A stretch of DNA of 64,000 nt from the NCBI GenBank assembly GCA_001898645.1, contig MKUQ01000027.1:1-64000 (forward strand), given 5' to 3'. Every line of letters starts with the position of its first letter. Positions within the stretch are counted from its first letter, which is position 1. The DNA is from Burkholderiales bacterium 70-64. Lineage in GTDB: Bacteria > Pseudomonadota > Gammaproteobacteria > Burkholderiales > Burkholderiaceae_E. The notes beneath the pieces are model-generated. The model was given only the letters and a program-made list of their open reading frames with translations. It searched no databases and was not told the origin of the DNA. The position numbers were made by a program, and so were the translations under genes. This document shows positions 16,833 through 62,298 of this stretch, in pieces.

Positions 16833-16838
16833 GCGTCT

Positions 16839-16899
16839 GTCTCCTCCACCCTCCTCCTTTGGTGGATTCAGCCCGAACCCAGCGTTCGGGCTTTTTTTT
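16839..16899 (+). ncRNA. Candidate small RNA with anti-Shine-Dalgarno loop
   Basis: A predicted transcript of about 61 nucleotides has no open frame. It folds into two hairpins. The first has stem TCCACC (16845–16850) with GGTGGA (16861–16866) and a loop CTCCTCCTTT, which imitates the CACCUCCUUU end of 16S rRNA. A second CTCCTCC lies at 16841–16847. The second hairpin is the intrinsic terminator with a U tail, the usual Hfq-binding end. C/U-rich loops that pair with Shine-Dalgarno regions are known in several proteobacterial sRNAs. Identity with a named family was not established. It could also be a short leader, but the nearest downstream gene, rplM, has its own promoter after the terminator. 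Confidence 0.6.
16870..16899 (+). terminator. Intrinsic terminator of the candidate sRNA
   Basis: AGCCCGAAC (16870–16878) pairs with GTTCGGGCT (16884–16892) around a five-base loop, followed by an uninterrupted T run to 16899. This is one of the best intrinsic terminators in the window although no protein gene ends here. Confidence 0.92.
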
Positions 16900-20735: not shown

Positions 20736-20857
20736 GAACGTGTGAAGGAACCGTAGCGAGCGGCCCGAGGTCGTGCCGAGAAGCGCAGCCGTACGAGAGT
20801 ACGGCGAGCATCGCAGGCGCGAGATCGGGCCGCGCAGTAGGTTCATTCATACGTTCA
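20736..20857 (-). repeat. 122-bp palindromic element, copy A
   Basis: This copy is in minus orientation between the convergent genes erpA and anmK. Read on the minus strand it begins TGAACGTATGAATGAACC, where the TGA is the anmK stop codon, and ends GGTTCCTTCACACGTTC. It differs from copy C at three of 122 positions. The outer 17-base arms, a middle GCGGCCCGA/TCGGGCCGC helix and an apical GCCGTAC-TCTC-GTACGGC hairpin let the whole element fold on itself. No open frame or transposase is associated. Confidence 0.95.
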
Positions 20858-21973
20858 GCACCGCGGTTCGGACAGAACGCCAAGCACCCGTGGGCCGCGC
20901 GCACCGGTGACCGAAGCCAGGTTGCCGGGCGCGCCGTCGACGCGCTGCGCGGCCAGCCACGCGAAGGCGGCCGCTTCCACTGCCTGCGGGTCGATTCCCG
21001 CTTCCTGCGTCGTCGCCACCGGCGCGGGCGCGGCATGGGCGGCCAGCCGCTGCACCAGGAAGCCGTTACGCGCCCCGCCTCCGCACACCAGGATGCGCTC
21101 GGCCCCGTAGTCACGGCAGGCGCGCGCCACGCTGACGGCGGTCAGCTCGACCAGCGTAGCCTGCACGTCGCGCGGCGCGACCGGCGCGTGCCGGCCGAGC
21201 GCGCGCTCCAGCCAGAGCGCTCCGAACAGCTCGCGCCCGGTGCTCTTGGGCGGCGCCCGCCCGAACCACGGATCGGCCAGCAGGCTGTCGAGCAGGGCCG
21301 CGTCGATCCGGCCGCCGCGCGCCCACCGGCCGTCGTCGTCGTAGTCGCTCCCCGTGTGGCTGCGACACCAGTGATCGAGCAGCAGGTTGGACGGACCGGT
21401 GTCATAGCCGAGCACCGGCTCGCCGGCGCATGCGCCCGGCGGCAGCAGGCTCACGTTGGCGATGCCGCCGAGGTTCACGACGGCCCGCCGCTCGCTCGGG
21501 TGGCGGAACATCTGCGCGTGGAAGGCCGGCACCAGCGGGGCGCCCTGGCCTCCGGCGGCGACGTCGGCCGCACGCAGGTCGGAGACCACGGCGATGCCGC
21601 AGGTCTCGGCGAGTCGCGCCGGGTTGAGCAGTTGCAGGGTGTAGCCCAGGTCCGGACGATGGCGCACGGTCTGGCCGTGCGCGCCTACGGCAACGATGTC
21701 CGCCGCGGCGCATCCGGCCCGGGCCAGGAGGTCGGCCACGACCGCCGCGTACGCGTCGGCGAGGCGGTTGGCCGCCACCGCGGCACGCGCCAGCTCGTCG
21801 TGGCCCGGGGCCTGCAGCGCGATGAATTCCTGGCGCAGGTCGGCCTCCAGCGGCCGGCTGGCGAAGGCGGCGGTGCGGATGGGCTGCGCGGTCCGCTCCG
21901 GGGCGAGCTCGAGGAGGGCTGCGTCGACCGCGTCGAGGCTGGTCCCCGACATGAGGCCGATGAACCGGCGCAC
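20855..21973 (-). CDS. anmK: Anhydro-N-acetylmuramic acid kinase
   Basis: A 372-residue kinase that phosphorylates and opens 1,6-anhydro-MurNAc in peptidoglycan recycling. The N-terminal FIGLMSGTSLDAVDAALLE is the ATP/sugar signature, with GHDEL and AVGAHGQTVRHRP following, and VLGYDTGPSNLLLD and VCGGGARNGFLVQRLA later. Length is typical. The last codons and stop are the first bases of a 122-bp palindromic element. The upstream M23 peptidase gene on the same strand is 26 bases away, so the pair is likely cotranscribed. Confidence 0.96.
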   Translation of the reverse strand: MRRFIGLMSGTSLDAVDAALLELAPERTAQPIRTAAFASRPLEADLRQEFIALQAPGHDELARAAVAANRLADAYAAVVADLLARAGCAAADIVAVGAHGQTVRHRPDLGYTLQLLNPARLAETCGIAVVSDLRAADVAAGGQGAPLVPAFHAQMFRHPSERRAVVNLGGIANVSLLPPGACAGEPVLGYDTGPSNLLLDHWCRSHTGSDYDDDGRWARGGRIDAALLDSLLADPWFGRAPPKSTGRELFGALWLERALGRHAPVAPRDVQATLVELTAVSVARACRDYGAERILVCGGGARNGFLVQRLAAHAAPAPVATTQEAGIDPQAVEAAAFAWLAAQRVDGAPGNLASVTGARGPRVLGVLSEPRC

Positions 21974-26811: not shown

Positions 26812-27083
26812 GCGCCCGGCCCGCCGGCGCCGGTCACCCGCCTCCCGGCTACCCTGCCGTCCGACTCGCGGTCATCCTCCAGTAGAATTCCGTTTGCCGC
26901 GTGACTGGCGAAGGGCGCTTCGCGGCGCCCAAGGGTGAAACGACACCGTGGAGCGCGGCGCGGCCGGATCCGTCCGGTCTCCTGCCGATCGCCTGGGCGC
27001 TGGGGGAGGGCATGCGCCTTGCTGCGCCTGCTCTCCGATGCGCAACGATCGCCGGCTGCGTCCGGCGCAGCGAGGTTACCCAC

Positions 27084-28328
27084 ATGTTCGACCGCAACAT
27101 CGGCATTTCCCTGACCGACCCGGAGCTCTGGAACGCGATCCGCCTGGAGAACCAGCGCCAGGAGGCGCACATCGAGCTGATCGCCTCGGAGAACTACGCC
27201 AGTCCGGCGGTGATGGCGGCCCAGGGCTGCCAGATGACCAACAAGTACGCCGAGGGGTATCCGGGCAAGCGCTATTACGGCGGCTGCGAATACGTCGACA
27301 TCGCCGAGCGGCTGGCCATCGAGCGGCTGAAGAAGCTCTTCGGCGCCGAGTGCGCCAATGCCCAGCCGCATTCGGGCGCGCAGGCCAATGAAGCGGTGCT
27401 CCTCGCCTTCCTGAAGCCCGGCGACACGATCATGGGCATGAGCCTCGCCGAAGGCGGGCACCTCTCCCACGGCATGGCGCTGAACATGTCCGGCAAGTGG
27501 TTCAACGTGGTGTCCTACGGCCTGAACGAGGCCGAAGAGATCGACTACGACGCCATGGAGCGCAAGGCGCACGAGCACAAGCCCCGGCTGATCATCGCCG
27601 GCGCCTCGGCCTACAGCCTGCGCATCGACTGGGCGCGCTTCGCGCAGGTGGCGAAAGACATCGGCGCGCTGCTCATGGTCGACATGGCGCACTATTCCGG
27701 CCTGATTGCCGGCGGCGTCTATCCCAACCCGGTGCCATACGCCGACATCGTCACCTCGACCACCCACAAGAGCCTGCGCGGACCCCGCGGCGGCTTCCTC
27801 CTCATGCCCGAGCGCCACGAGAAGGCGATCAACTCGGCGGTCTTCCCCGGCCTGCAGGGAGGGCCGCTGATGCACGTGATCGCGGCCAAGGCGGTCGCCT
27901 TCCACGAGGCGCTGCAGCCCGCGTTCAAGGCGTACGCGCGCCAGGTCCTGGTGAACGCGCAGGTGCTCGCGCAGACCCTCATCGAGCGCGGCCTGCGCAT
28001 CGTCTCCGGGCGCACCGAGTCGCACCTCATGCTGGTCGACCTGCGCGCCAAGAAGATCACCGGCAAGGAGGCCGAGCGCGTGCTGGGCGAGGCGCACATC
28101 ACCTGCAACAAGAACGCGATCCCCAACGATCCGGAAAAGCCCATGGTCACCAGCGGCATCCGCCTGGGTACCCCCGCCATGACCACGCGCGGCTTCGCCG
28201 AGGACGAGGCGCGCCAGGTCGGCCACCTCATCGCCGACGTGCTGGAGAAGCCGGACGACGCGGCCACGCTGTCGGCGGTGCGCGAGCGCGTCGGCCAGCT
28301 CACGGCGAAGTTCCCGGTATACGGTTGA
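27084..28328 (+). CDS. glyA: Serine hydroxymethyltransferase
   Basis: A 414-residue PLP enzyme that interconverts serine and glycine while charging tetrahydrofolate with a one-carbon unit. The PLP lysine is Lys229 in [14 protein letters not shown], the same position as in E. coli. [15 protein letters not shown] and [15 protein letters not shown] flank the substrate site. The 272-base region upstream has no gene and no riboswitch that I recognise; TAGAAT at 26883 is an isolated -10-like hexamer. The stop codon TGA is also the first three bases of a 122-bp palindromic element that separates it from nrdR. Confidence 0.98.
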
Positions 28329-28447
28329 ACGTATGAAGGAACCTACTGCGCGGCCCGATCTCGCGCCTGCGATGCTCGCCGTACCCCAGTACGGCTGCGC
28401 TTCTCGGCACGCCCTCGGGCCGCTCGCTACGGTTCCTTCACACGTTC
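28326..28447 (+). repeat. 122-bp palindromic element, copy B
   Basis: This copy begins with the glyA stop codon (TGAACGTATGAAGGAACC) and ends GGTTCCTTCACACGTTC, 56 bases before nrdR. It differs from copy C at six positions, three of them in the apical loop (CCCA instead of TCTC) while the flanking GCCGTAC/GTACGGC stem is unchanged. It lies between two codirectional genes, so it would be transcribed as a long hairpin. Confidence 0.95.
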
Positions 28448-28503
28448 TGATTCGAGCTGCTACCCCGGCAAGCGCGCCCCTTGCGGTGCGTTGATCCCGC
28501 CCT

Positions 28504-37354: not shown

Positions 37355-38425
37355 ATGGAAAAAGTGATCAAGATGGACGACGCAAAATCCAGAACCGAGC
37401 GCGCCAAGGCCTTGTCGGCCGCGCTGGCGCAGATCGAGAAGCAGTTCGGCAAGGGCTCGGTGATGAAGTTCTCCGACGCCGACGTCACGCGCGACATCCA
37501 GGTGGTGTCCACCGGCTCGCTGGGCCTCGATCTCGCCCTCGGCGTGGGCGGCCTGCCGCGCGGGCGCGTGGTCGAGATCTACGGTCCCGAATCCTCGGGC
37601 AAGACCACCCTCACGCTGCAGGTCATCGCCGAGATGCAGAAGCTCGGCGGCACCTGCGCCTTCATCGACGCCGAGCACGCGCTCGACGTGCAGTACGCGG
37701 CCAAGCTCGGCGTCGACCTCGAGAGCCTGCTGATCTCGCAGCCCGACACCGGCGAACAGGCCCTCGAGATCACCGATGCGCTGGTGCGCTCGGGCTCGGT
37801 CGACTTGGTCGTCATCGATTCGGTCGCGGCGCTCACGCCGAAAGCCGAGATCGAGGGCGAAATGGGCGATTCGCTGCCCGGCCTGCAGGCGCGGCTGATG
37901 TCGCAGGCCCTGCGCAAGCTCACCGGCACCATCAATCGCACCAACACGATGGTCATCTTCATCAACCAGATCCGCATGAAGATCGGCGTCATGTTCGGCA
38001 ACCCGGAAACCACCACCGGCGGCAACGCGCTGAAGTTCTATGCCTCGGTGCGGCTCGACATCCGCCGCACGGGCTCCATCAAGAAGGGCGACGAGGTCAT
38101 CGGCAGCGAGACACGGGTCAAGGTGGTCAAGAACAAGGTCGCCCCGCCGTTCAAGACAGCCGAGTTCGACATCCTGTACGGCGAGGGCACCTCGCGCGAA
38201 GGTGAGATCCTCGATCTCGGCGCCAACTGCAACGTCGTGGAGAAGAGCGGCGCCTGGTACAGCTACAACGGCGAGCGCGTCGGCCAGGGCAAGGACAACG
38301 CCCGCGAGTACCTGCGCGAGCGCCCCGAGCTCGCGCTCGAGATCGAGAACAAGGTTCGCGCCCACTTCGGCGTGGCGGCGCGCGGCGCGACGCCTGGGGC
38401 CGCCGGGGAAGAAGCCGTCGCATGA
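37355..38425 (+). CDS. recA: Recombinase RecA
   Basis: A 356-residue RecA, the strand-exchange ATPase and LexA co-protease. The Walker A motif GPESSGKT is at residues 77–84 and the DNA-binding loops lie in [19 protein letters not shown] and [19 protein letters not shown]. The C-terminal tail is acidic only at its end. A LexA-like box overlaps its promoter. The stop codon TGA coincides with the first bases of copy C of the palindromic element, so recX is separated from recA by a long hairpin rather than a simple terminator. Confidence 0.99.
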
Positions 38426-38544
38426 ACGTGTGAAGGAACCTACTGCGCGGCCCGATCTCGCGCCTGTGATGCTCGCCGTACTCTCGTACGGCTGCGCTTC
38501 TCGGCACGACCTCGGGCCGCTCGCTACGGTTCCTTCACACGTTC
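38423..38544 (+). repeat. 122-bp palindromic element, copy C
   Basis: This copy occupies nearly all of the recA–recX gap. It starts with the recA stop (TGAACGTGTGAAGGAACC) and ends GGTTCCTTCACACGTTC; the outer 17-base arms pair perfectly. The apex is GCCGTAC-TCTC-GTACGGC. Only eight bases separate its end from the recX ATG. Confidence 0.95.
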
Positions 38545-58600: not shown

Positions 58601-61512
58601 CCCTGCACAACGTGCAGTTGCTGGCCGAGCAGCTCGAGGTGTTCCTCCTGCGCCAGCGTGCCTGCGCTCGTCCGATGCCGGCGCAGGACCTGGATGACTA
58701 CGCGCATGCCATCGAGCGCATGCAGGCGATGTTGCACCGCTTCGCCGCCGGGAGTCCGCCGCGTGAGGAGCCCGAGGCGCATGCGCTTGCGCATGCCCTC
58801 GCCGCGCGCTGGGATCCGCGCATCGTCACGCGCGACGAAATGCACGCCGCCGTGCCGGATTCGCTCGATACACAGGCTGCGCTCGACGCTCCCGATATGC
58901 CTGGAGCTTCCGATGCGCCTGATGCGTCCGATGCGCTCGGCGCGCAGGCGGATGGGACACCGCAGGCGGCTGCGACGGCCCATCCGGTGGACGAGCTTGA
59001 TGCGGAGCTGCTGCCGATCTTCATCGAGGAGGCCGCCGACTACCTGCCGCAGATCGGCGAGAACCTGCGCCGCTGGCTCGAGGCCCCGGCCGACCGTTCG
59101 CTGCAGCAGACCCTGATGCGCCACCTGCATACCGTCAAGGGCAGCGCGCGCATGGCCGGCGCCATGGACCTCGGGCAGCGTGTGCACGAAATGGAGACGC
59201 GCATCGAGGCGGCGAGCGTGCTCACCGTCGTGCCAGGCACGCTGATCGAGGAGCTGATCGCCGATCACGACGAGGTGGTCGGCCTGTTCGAGGCCATCCG
59301 CGATCCCGCGAGACGGGCACCGGCCGTGGCGGCCGGCGCCGTTCCCGCTGCCGCAGCCCCTGCGAACGCTGCCGATTCCGCCCCCGCTACCCTCGCGGCC
59401 CCCGGAATCGCTGCAGCCGTTGCCGCGCCCGCTGTCGCCCCGGCCGATGCCGCATACGCCTCCGCCACGCCCGATGTGGCGGCGCCCGGTGCCGCCGGCG
59501 CACCAATCGCTCCGGATGCCGCGGAAGAGGGCGTGGCGGCGCAGCTTGCGGCCGAGCCGACCGAGCCGGTGCAGTTGGCCGCCGGTCAGCCGCCCGCTGC
59601 CCAGCCGCCGGCCGCGGCTCCGCGTGCCGCTGCCCCGGCGCAGGCGGCCGGCGCCGCGCCCTCGGCTACGGCCCTGGTGCGGGTGCGCGCCGACCTGCTC
59701 GAACGGGTGGTCAACGAATCGGGCGAGGTCTCGATCGCGCGTTCGCGGCTGGACAACGAGCTGGGCCAGCTGCGGCTGTCGTTGCAGGACCTCACCGAGA
59801 ACGTCGGGCGGCTGCGTTCGCAGTTGCGCGAGATCGAGATCCAGGCCGAGTCGCAGATCCAGGCGCGCATCGCGCACCAGCGCGAGAGCAGCGTCGAGTT
59901 CGATCCGCTGGAGTTCGATCGCTACACGCGCTTCCAGGAGCTCACGCGCATGCTGGCCGAGTCGGTCAACGACGTGGCCACGGTGCAGCATAACGCGATG
60001 CGCAACCTCGACGAGGCCGCGCAGGACATGGTGCGCCATGCGCAGGTGCTGCGCGAGCTGCAGCAGAACCTGATGCGCATGCGCATGGTGCAGTTCGGCT
60101 CGATCTCCGATCGCCTCTATCGCGTGGTGCGCCAGGCGGCCAAGGAGCTGGGCAAGCGCGTGAGCCTGGACGTGCGCGGCGCATCGGTGGAAATCGATCG
60201 GGGCGTGCTCGAGCGTATGGCCGGCCCGATCGAGCATCTGCTGCGCAACGCCGTCGCGCACGGCATCGAGCCGCCGCAGGATCGCCTGGCGGCGGGCAAG
60301 TCCGAGGCGGGCGAGATCCGCGTCGAAGTGCGTCAGGAAGGCAACGAGGTCGTGCTGGCCTTCGCCGACGACGGCGGCGGGTTGGACTACGCGAAGATCC
60401 TCGCGCGCGCCAGGAGCCTGGGTCTGGTCGGTGAGCACGCGCAGCCGGGTGAGCGCGAGCTCGCCGACCTCATCTTCGCGCCGGGCTTCTCCACCGCCAG
60501 CGCGGTCACCGAGCTCGCCGGCCGCGGCGTGGGTACCGACGTCGTGCGCTCGGAGGTGCTCGCGCTGGGCGGGCGCATCGACGTCGAATCCAGCGCTGGC
60601 GCCGGCACGCGGTTCACGATCCACCTGCCGCTCACGCTGGCGATCGCCCAGGTGGTGCTGGTGACGGTCGGCCAGGCGCAATACGCCATTCCCTCGTCGA
60701 GCGTCGAGCAGGTGCTGCAGCTCAAGCCGCAGGCGCTGGCCGCGGCCTACGGCGAGGGTTCGGTCCAGTGGCAGGGTGCGCGGGTACCGATGCACTACCT
60801 GGGTGCGTTGGCCGGGCTGCCGGAGTCGCAGCCGGTCGCCCAGCACCTGTCGCCGGTGGTGATCGTGCGTTCGGCGAACCTGCGCCTGGCCATGCACGTC
60901 GATGCGGTCAGCCGCAACCAGGAAGTGGTGGTCAAGAACGTGGGCCCGCAGGCGGCCCGCGTACCCGGCATCGGTGGCGCCACCGTGCTCGGCGACGGCG
61001 AGATCGTGCTGATCCTGAACGCCGCCCGCCTGGCCCAGTCGGTGCTGGGCGACCTGTGGATGGTCGAACGGCCGTCGCCGGGCGTGCAGCGTGCCGCCCT
61101 GGCCGAGGTGCCGCCGACCGTGATGGTGGTGGACGACTCGCTCACCGTGCGCAAGGCGACGCAGCGGCTGCTGGCGCGCGAAGGCTACGACGTGATGCTG
61201 GCCAAGGACGGGGTCGATGCGCTGCGCCAGCTGCAGGATCGCCGGCCCGACGTGATGCTGGTCGACATCGAGATGCCGCGCATGGACGGCTTCGACCTCA
61301 CGCGCAACGTGCGCGGCGACGCCCAGCACGGCGACATCCCGATCGTGATGATCACCTCGCGCATGGCCGACAAGCATCGCAACTACGCGCTGTCGCTGGG
61401 CGTCGACGTCTACCTCGGCAAGCCCTGGCGTGACGACGAGCTGCTGCGGTACATCGCAGGGTTCGTGGCAGCGCGCCGGCGCGCCGCCGGCGCTGCGGCG
61501 CGGATTGTGTAG
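55612..61512 (+). CDS. chpA: Hybrid chemotaxis histidine kinase ChpA (PilL)
   Basis: A 1966-residue CheA-type hub. Three canonical Hpt sites are seen at His768 ([10 protein letters not shown]), His987 ([10 protein letters not shown]) and His1173 ([10 protein letters not shown]), and at least one degenerate module at His489 (HQVAG, lacking Lys). Then come a dimer helix region from about 1365, the ATPase N-box [11 protein letters not shown] (about 1543–1553), a CheW-like domain, and a receiver with Asp1885 in [13 protein letters not shown]. Linkers at about 865–925 and 1235–1360 are Ala/Pro-rich or repeat-like. No pilK or chpB methylation genes follow; the next gene is yqgE. Confidence 0.95.
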
Positions 61513-61540
61513 CCAGGGGGTGCGCCTTTACAATCGGGCC

Positions 61541-62110
61541 ATGGGCGCCCAGACCGTCTCCAACCTGACCAACCAGTTCCTGATCGCCATGCCCGACATG
61601 GCGGATCCGAACTTCGGCGGCACCGTCGTGTTCGTGGTCGAGCACAACGAGAAGGGTGCCCTTGGCTTGGTCATCAACCGGCCGATGGAGATCGATCTGG
61701 CCACGCTGTTCGAGCGCATCGATCTCAAGCTCGAGATCGCGCCGCTGGCCGGTTCGCCGGTGTTCTTCGGGGGGCCGGTCCAGATGGACCGCGGCTTCGT
61801 GCTGCACCAGCCGGTCGGCGAATGGAACTCCACGGTCGCGGTCGGCGACGAACTCGGCCTCACGTCGTCCAAGGACGTACTCGAGGCGGTCGCCGACGGG
61901 GGCGGCCCGCGCCGGATGCTGGTCACGCTCGGCTACGCGGGCTGGGGCCCCGGGCAGCTCGAGGAGGAAATCTCGCGCAACGCCTGGCTCACGGCACCGG
62001 CCGACGCCGATCTCATCTTCGATACGCCGGCCGACGAACGCTTCATGGCGGCGTTCCGTCTCCTCGGCATCGATCCGGCGTTCCTCGCCACCTCGGCCGG
62101 CCACGCTTGA
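61541..62110 (+). CDS. YqgE/AlgH family protein
   Basis: A 189-residue protein of the YqgE/AlgH family, whose fold is known but function is not. It begins [18 protein letters not shown] and has [20 protein letters not shown] and [16 protein letters not shown], with [18 protein letters not shown] late. TACAAT at 61529–61534 may be its -10 element. It leads the conserved yqgE–ruvX–pyrR–pyrB group. Its stop codon is the first three bases of copy D of the palindromic element. Confidence 0.93.
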
Positions 62111-62229
62111 ACGTACGAATGAACCTACTGCGCGGCCCGATCTCGCGCCTGCGATGCTCGCCGTACCCTGGTACGGCTGCGCTTCTCGGCGCGACCTCGG
62201 GCCGCTCGCTACGGTTCCTTCGCACGTTC
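62108..62229 (+). repeat. 122-bp palindromic element, copy D
   Basis: This copy begins with the yqgE stop (TGAACGTACGAATGAACC) and ends GGTTCCTTCGCACGTTC. It differs from copy C at eight positions. One pair of differences, T-A to C-G at the eighth base pair of the outer stem, keeps pairing. The loop is CCTG. It lies between yqgE and ruvX, which are read in the same direction. Confidence 0.95.
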
Positions 62230-62298
62230 TGATCGGTGGGCCACGGCCCTCTGGACCAAGGGACACAACTGAGTGCGTCTGGCGAGCGGGGCGGTGCG

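Follow-up and report, generated by a model that had tools for sequence, protein, structure and literature searches.

The window, by which we mean the whole stretch of 64,000 nucleotides from Burkholderiales bacterium 70-64, contains four copies of a 122-bp element, and each of them lies at the 3' end of a gene. The copies and their genes are these:

20736..20857, minus strand: element at the anmK stop, TGA at 20857-20855; the convergent gene erpA ends 5 bp from its far end
20855..21973, minus strand: anmK; its stop codon forms the element's left end
26901..28328, plus strand: glyA (serine hydroxymethyltransferase, SHMT); its stop codon forms the element's left end
28326..28447, plus strand: element at the glyA stop, TGA at 28326-28328; the right flank is again TGA, at 28448-28450
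37364..38425, plus strand: recA; its stop codon forms the element's left end
38423..38544, plus strand: element at the recA stop, TGA at 38423-38425; recX lies downstream in the same direction
61511..62110, plus strand: yqgE; its stop codon forms the element's left end, and its 3' part was used in the family search
62108..62229, plus strand: element at the yqgE stop, TGA at 62108-62110; the right flank is TGA, at 62230-62232, and ruvX lies downstream in the same direction

The copies at 20736, 38423 and 62108 are 94-96% identical to the one at 28326. All four TGAs terminate long GC3-biased frames, which NCBIfam names AnmK, GlyA (SHMT), RecA and YqgE; eight gene names in this work come from NCBIfam and all others from our reading of the sequences. 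The original prediction was that the end beginning TGAACGT faces the 3' end of a gene, that its first three bases are the TGA stop of that gene, and that the orientation to the gene is the same each time. This is true of all four copies in the window.

The element is an imperfect palindrome, GAACGTGTGAAGGAACC ... GGTTCCTTCACACGTTC, and it folds strongly as RNA on either strand. For the 28326 copy the gene strand gives -70 kcal/mol (z -9.0) and the opposite strand -82.9 kcal/mol (z -10.5). The genome of 70-64 (G000; 4.72 Mb in 63 contigs, in the same genus as Zeimonas arvi) holds 31 nearly full-length copies with identities of 88% or higher, together with partial copies and shorter palindromes of 37, 40, 45, 58, 62 and 67 bp, which look like internal deletions of one palindrome. 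Pairing GAACGTGTGAA arms finds at least 52 elements of 37-376 bp, a lower bound since the pairing drew on the first 100 of 200 places where the arm matches. The palindromes themselves range from 37 to 159 bp, and the lengths of 271 and 376 bp occur where another repeat is nested. Inverted ends of 11-17 bp are common to the copies, and there is no space for a gene within. The element is in other words short, non-coding and bounded by terminal inverted repeats (GAACGTGTGAA or GAAGGTGTGAA), as a miniature inverted-repeat transposable element (MITE) would be. Two other repeats touch on these counts. What looks, from its spacing and repeat, like a CRISPR array at C53:33283-34618 contains GAACGCGGGGATGAACC at least 20 times, in most cases at a spacing of about 61 bp, and inflates the number of arm matches in the genome. 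A second repeat, with ends GGGCCTGTTCACCC and a CTAG-like target, is nested in the loop of two elements (L060:1567-1718 and L061).

Tabulating every copy against the nearest stop was the check proposed with the original prediction, and in G000 it came out in favor of that prediction. Among the arm matches listed, and after correction by hand, 51 of the 52 pairs have one end at a coding stop; the exception is L030:1914-1972. The automatic count, which takes a coding stop from -4 to +7 of an end, is 48/52. The corrections concern L006, a false pairing whose true copy has its stop at -2, L061 with its stop at -7, and L066 with its stop at +11. Single arms have a stop in 11 of 23 cases, one of which is the true L006 copy, and some of these arms are spurious or are parts of degenerate full copies. 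The position of the stop takes three common values. Leaving out L006 and L030, 50 elements divide into register -1 (20 copies), -3 (14) and +7 (11), with -4 in two and -2, -7 and +11 in one each. The prediction of strict registration on TGAACGT therefore stands as far as the stop lies at the end of the element and fails as a single strict register, because TGAACGT is one of three common ones. The stops at the elements include TAG and TAA besides TGA. Where the register is +7 the protein takes its last residues, often NV, from the element and terminates at a stop that the element itself provides; L003, L010, L023, L024 and L065 show such an added C-terminus, mostly Asn-Val (Asn-Met in L003), followed by the TGA of the element.

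The orientation found in the window extends to the genome, where 40 of the 41 copies that can be oriented turn the same arm toward the gene. This is 39/40 as computed with L006 added by hand; L009 is the reversed copy, two elements have stops at both ends, and nine, including the stopless copy, are undetermined. The neighboring gene beyond the element is convergent in 27/50 copies and co-directional in 23/50. Of these 23, 13 sit 4-70 bp upstream of that gene, four of them at 4-10 bp.

It is important to ask how many copies would lie at stops by chance. Script-made gene calls, which missed some genes including yqgE, give 42 TGA stops in the window against 103 non-coding TGA or TCA, and 5 stops in a CTNAG context against 4 non-coding CTNAG; TGA accounts for 42 of the 56 stops called. 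Around ten Variovorax loci CTNAG is found at 18 stops and 5 non-coding places, though at least 7 of the 18 are element sites themselves. Choice of such targets, combined with the loss of insertions that break genes, leads us to expect about 30-70% of surviving copies at stops, and 51/52 exceeds this. Among 17 distinct copies of the CTAG-like repeat in the same genome, 6 overlap a stop and 8 are no more than 2 nt from one (counted by hand from 22 loci listed, with nested and duplicate entries dropped), so overlap of stops by a mobile repeat is not unique to our element in G000.

The stops themselves appear to be older than the elements. We compared the C-termini of 14 genes at the protein level with six genomes of the same genus, leaving out PaaY and ferredoxin; three rows of this comparison are mis-framed and one site appears twice. 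The final residue is the same in the relatives for GlyA (4/6 rows), YqgE, Mrp, LspA, RpsJ, RadC, PpiC and Bfr. GlyA ends in PVYG in four of the six relatives, which lack the element, and in PVYGG in the other two, and YqgE ends in SAGHA in all six. RpsP and RecA agree to within a few residues, the RecA tail being variable. In AnmK, Fur and SecB the end is shifted by one to several residues, with the relatives of AnmK ending later, and YejF orthologues range from equal length to about 14 residues longer. No row of the 14 genes in the six genomes has the element in the 57 nt past the orthologue's stop. Since for most of the 14 genes the relatives' proteins finish at, or a few residues from, the same position, truncation of genes by random insertion is rejected.

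Two Variovorax genomes carry copies that are 92-100% identical to the query, mostly placed as TGA, then GAAGGTGTGAA...TTCACACCTTC, then TGA. Of 19 Variovorax loci flanked by TGA left and right, 16 are preceded by C and 15 are followed by G, a context that points to recognition at the level of DNA. A second Variovorax form of 158-159 bp has a different mid-stem with the same ends, a similar apex and the same kind of site; at L275-L280 and L287 this form has TGA flanks and TGA stops, the frame being weak at L277. A set of 12 paired Variovorax loci, which overlaps with the 19, contains ten with TGA at either border, the exceptions being L290 and L293; nine of the ten carry the 159-bp form, full or shortened, and L294 carries the first form.

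We then joined the flanks of nine filled sites, with L256 left out, and searched three genomes for the joined sequence. Seven of the nine match element-free sites in alignments that span the junction, and these sites have one stop (TGA or TAA) in the same place or one codon further on. The alignments of L275 with L328 and L331 are gapless, and that of L280 with L333 is gap-free at the junction. The joined flanks of L244 and L279 have no spanning alignment in the three genomes searched. In V. boronicumulans, L336, which is orthologous to L240, has a short remnant of the element between two TGAs, as if the element had been mostly deleted, and L342 may also retain a short remnant. Because the filled sites have TGA on either side of the element and the orthologous empty sites have one stop, insertion duplicates the stop. 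A target-site duplication of the sort that defines a MITE is thereby seen against empty sites, and it is the TNA duplication of elements derived from IS5/IS1031. The earlier suggestion that the element inserts precisely at stop codons is borne out by the orthologue stops and by these single-stop empty sites. That it supplies the TGA itself is correct for registers -1 and +7 and incorrect for register -3, where the stop is the host's own.

The right-hand side in G000 is less regular. TGA is on the right flank in 20/50 copies, far above 1 in 64, and where it is kept G comes next in 1/6 of the register -1 copies and 6/8 of the register -3 copies. With G next in only 1/6 of the former, the C..G context is not general in G000. 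On a tree of 28 G000 copies the three register classes do not cluster (14 changes, against a shuffled mean of 13.0, with weak branch support), which suggests that sites were hit many times independently. The idea that the register is inherited with the lineage of the element finds no support in this tree, whose branches are weak.

An exact pattern search of GTDB species genomes returns 21 stretches in Polaromonas, Variovorax, Lautropia, Zeimonas, Zoogloea, Rhodoferax and other Burkholderiales, and the core of the element is present in 36 of 300 genomes of the order, covering 21 of 134 genera. In four genomes from Variovorax, Polaromonas and Zoogloea a stop stands at the base of the stem in 25/29 loci as judged by eye, the exceptions being L245, L251, L259 and L261; L263 and L264 represent a single site seen in two genomes. 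Mostly farther genera make up the 25 rows L299-L324, two of which are same-genus. By eye, 15/25 abut TGA, TAG or TAA within about 6 nt and 10/25 have no clear abutting stop; the script over-extended stem lengths here, so stop positions were the only thing read. The outer stems are locus-specific in the farther genera. Adherence to stops is thus strict in G000, strong in Variovorax and related genera, and lower in the mostly farther rows.

Repeats that supply stop codons have been described before. The BOX repeats of Streptococcus pneumoniae are modular, consisting of boxA, boxB and boxC. The available part of one account has them encode the stop of 36/58 overlapping coding sequences, without strong evidence of truncation, and finds them over-represented between convergent genes (PMC3049150). 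These are real likenesses, but BOX, which we set apart by its description, is not this palindrome, and stops in 36/58 fall short of a near-universal rule (PMC3049150). GTAG and CGTC REPs are likewise palindromes by the 3' ends of genes, and the termini of GTAG REPs often provide a TAG stop, according to the portion available (PMC3733652). They differ in being 20-40 bp long with a GTAG or CGTC tag and in having been studied together with tyrosine transposases (PMC3733652, same portion), whereas our element lacks either tag, has the ends GAACGTGTGAA...TTCACACGTTC, duplicates TGA and occurs in G000 without a Y1 gene. The claim that no described repeat family has such registration was therefore too strong, given that BOX and GTAG REPs supply stops in the accessible parts of those papers (PMC3049150, PMC3733652). 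Stop-supplying repeats are known; what is new is the strictness in G000. Among the matches listed in the open PMC literature, taken by titles and the starts of abstracts, no paper names this family.

The closest likeness is to the IS1031 subgroup of the IS5 family and the MITEs derived from it. In the accessible text of PMC12016507 these share a 3-bp TNA duplication, insertion at TGA and ends beginning GAAC.TGT, and one of them, the IS1031-type ISLrh, has an inverted repeat that begins GAACCTGT, prefers a TNA target and was inserted at TGA. The differences are that in our case no transposase copy or donor was found, nearly all G000 copies are at in-frame stops in one orientation, and there is a long internal palindrome. 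NuwaII, a group of IS5-related eukaryotic transposons, shares a TNA target with C before it and G after it, but is eukaryotic, and the available text gives no relation to stop codons (PMC4482050).

Several other identities were tried and rejected. A REP/RAYT system lacks its tag here, there is no Y1 gene in G000, and the lone Y1 gene in each of G017, G041 and G042 has no family copy beside it. PF01609 genes as donors are unsupported, since five loci in four genomes are without element ends; no autonomous element with these ends is present at those loci and no donor among the arm matches listed, the transposase families searched being PF01609 in four genomes and PF01797 in seven. An intrinsic terminator would have a T-run directly past the hairpin, and there is none behind the 20736, 28326 and 38423 copies or in the flank of the 62108 copy, and inspection of 25 nt to the right of the G000 copies showed none either. 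As a known RNA, one 122-bp and one 159-bp element gave Rfam matches far below gathering scores. The sole Rfam match in the window lies elsewhere, at 16838-16899 (RF02278, Betaproteobacteria toxic small RNA, 75 bits). The R' core of an integron attC site is GTTRRRY; the gene content and the right end GTTC, often followed by TGA, fail to fit a cassette. A phage or plasmid passenger is rejected too, since no match was found in phages, plasmids or viral contigs (one exact pattern for the viral contigs).

We believe the element is a short, non-autonomous, palindromic MITE-like transposable element of the Burkholderiales, mobilized in trans and recently active in G000 and Variovorax, which duplicates stop codons and survives there, and we put the probability of this reading at about 0.6. 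On this view a transposase working in trans, and probably an IS5/IS1031-like enzyme that generates TNA duplications, would pick sites containing TGA. Insertion at a stop would regenerate the stop and leave the gene whole, in Variovorax with a 3-bp duplication lying mostly between C and G. As the stop is restored on insertion while most other targets are inside genes, the survivors would be those sitting on stop codons. Changes at the left junction would be tolerated only while a stop remains, which would give registers -1, -3 and +7, and the weakly supported tree looks as if the left junction of the G000 copies was set at or after each insertion. The insertions are not in the relatives examined, are placed at ancestral stops and duplicate the stop in Variovorax, and the ends and target resemble those of IS1031-type elements. 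That CTNAG is scarce outside genes in the window (5 stops, 4 non-coding) and that the 159-bp Variovorax form keeps the same ends and kind of site despite a different mid-stem also argue for this reading. Against it stand the lack of an autonomous donor in the PF01609 and PF01797 searches described above, the C..G context that most register -1 copies with a right-hand TGA do not share, an orientation, fixed in 40/41, that a symmetric target would not be expected to give, the excess of 51/52 over about 30-70%, a right-hand TGA that is absent in 30/50 G000 copies, and the farther genera with their locus-specific outer stems, TAA or TAG stops, and a stop abutted in 15/25 rows. To account for the orientation and the excess at stops, one may have to invoke a target choice that depends on orientation, or else selection acting on the hairpin in the transcript.

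Selection on the hairpin is the basis of another explanation, that insertion is looser and that copies abutting a stop in one direction remain because the hairpin has a role in the mRNA at the stop, such as protection of the 3' end, processing by RNase III/E or slowed termination. This would account for the fixed orientation and for stems that vary by genus while the stop stays at the base (25/29 and 15/25 rows, by eye), and convergent neighbors in 27/50 suit it. It also draws on covariation, which counts against simple transposition. Over 36 copies, 14 of 44 pairs show changes on both sides, where the shuffled mean is 5.2, none of 500 shuffles reaches 14, and slid versions give 0-3. This hints at selection on pairing or at repair of one arm from the other, since palindrome correction could mimic it; a by-eye count of the asymmetry between A.C and G.U pairs on the two strands was mixed. 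Yet hairpins starting at stops are rare otherwise. Among 193 sampled G000 stops that remained after filtering for the family, eight cases are listed in which a stem of 9 bp or longer opens no more than 2 nt from the stop. Six of the eight are copies of the family that had escaped the filter, L015 pairs with a copy close by, and L062 alone is independent; the remaining stems begin 9-77 nt past the stop. There is no T-run behind the window copies, 23/50 copies precede a co-directional gene, four of them by 4-10 bp, and selection on position leaves the TGA on the far side unaccounted for. We regard retention for such a role as unlikely, though it deserves some weight. The narrower proposal that the element is kept as a defined mRNA 3' end gains no support from these observations: the T-run is missing from the window copies, 13/23 copies lie just 4-70 bp before a co-directional gene, and other hairpins rarely start at a stop.

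A fixed orientation, hairpin structure and TGA at both borders would also follow from single-strand mobility (HUH/Y1, of the IS200/IS605 or RAYT-like kind), with the element joined 3' of a TGA-containing tetranucleotide, which fixes the orientation, and the right TGA being its own cleavage site. Nevertheless G000, G007, G002 and G006 (68% complete) have no Y1 (PF01797) match, the Y1 genes of three other genomes lie apart from the family as noted above, and the C..G symmetry around TGA together with the 3-bp duplication at empty sites suits a DDE enzyme better, which makes this route quite improbable in our opinion. A true recognition of stop codons, in which insertion depends on translation termination or on the transcript, making every in-frame stop, and nothing else, a target, would explain 51/52 copies at in-frame stops, the single orientation to the gene and the occurrence of TGA, TAG and TAA alike. 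But TGA makes up 42/56 of the window's stops anyway, the C-before, G-after context in Variovorax indicates DNA recognition with TAG and TAA perhaps being later drift, and 10/25 farther-genus rows have no clear abutting stop. We know of no enzyme that couples insertion to stop codons, and we consider this mechanism very improbable indeed. The broader statement that in several genera of one order insertion is tied to gene polarity and the in-frame stop, beyond the TGA motif, strikes us as doubtful. If it is true, this would be the first transposition system that senses the end of translation, or else the first repeat that selection maintains precisely at stop codons.

On the transposition reading, a duplication that equals the stop codon makes the end of nearly any gene, essential and operonic genes included, a self-repairing safe harbor for a mobile element. 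Such genes hit by the element include glyA and recA, as named by NCBIfam, and further hosts that we take to be rpsJ, hemA and lspA from reading their proteins. Each insertion places a strong hairpin right where the ribosome terminates, and dozens of natural insertions of this kind offer a way to probe termination, mRNA decay and the expression of operons. If the orientation lock is mechanistic, it would represent an unrecognized targeting rule.
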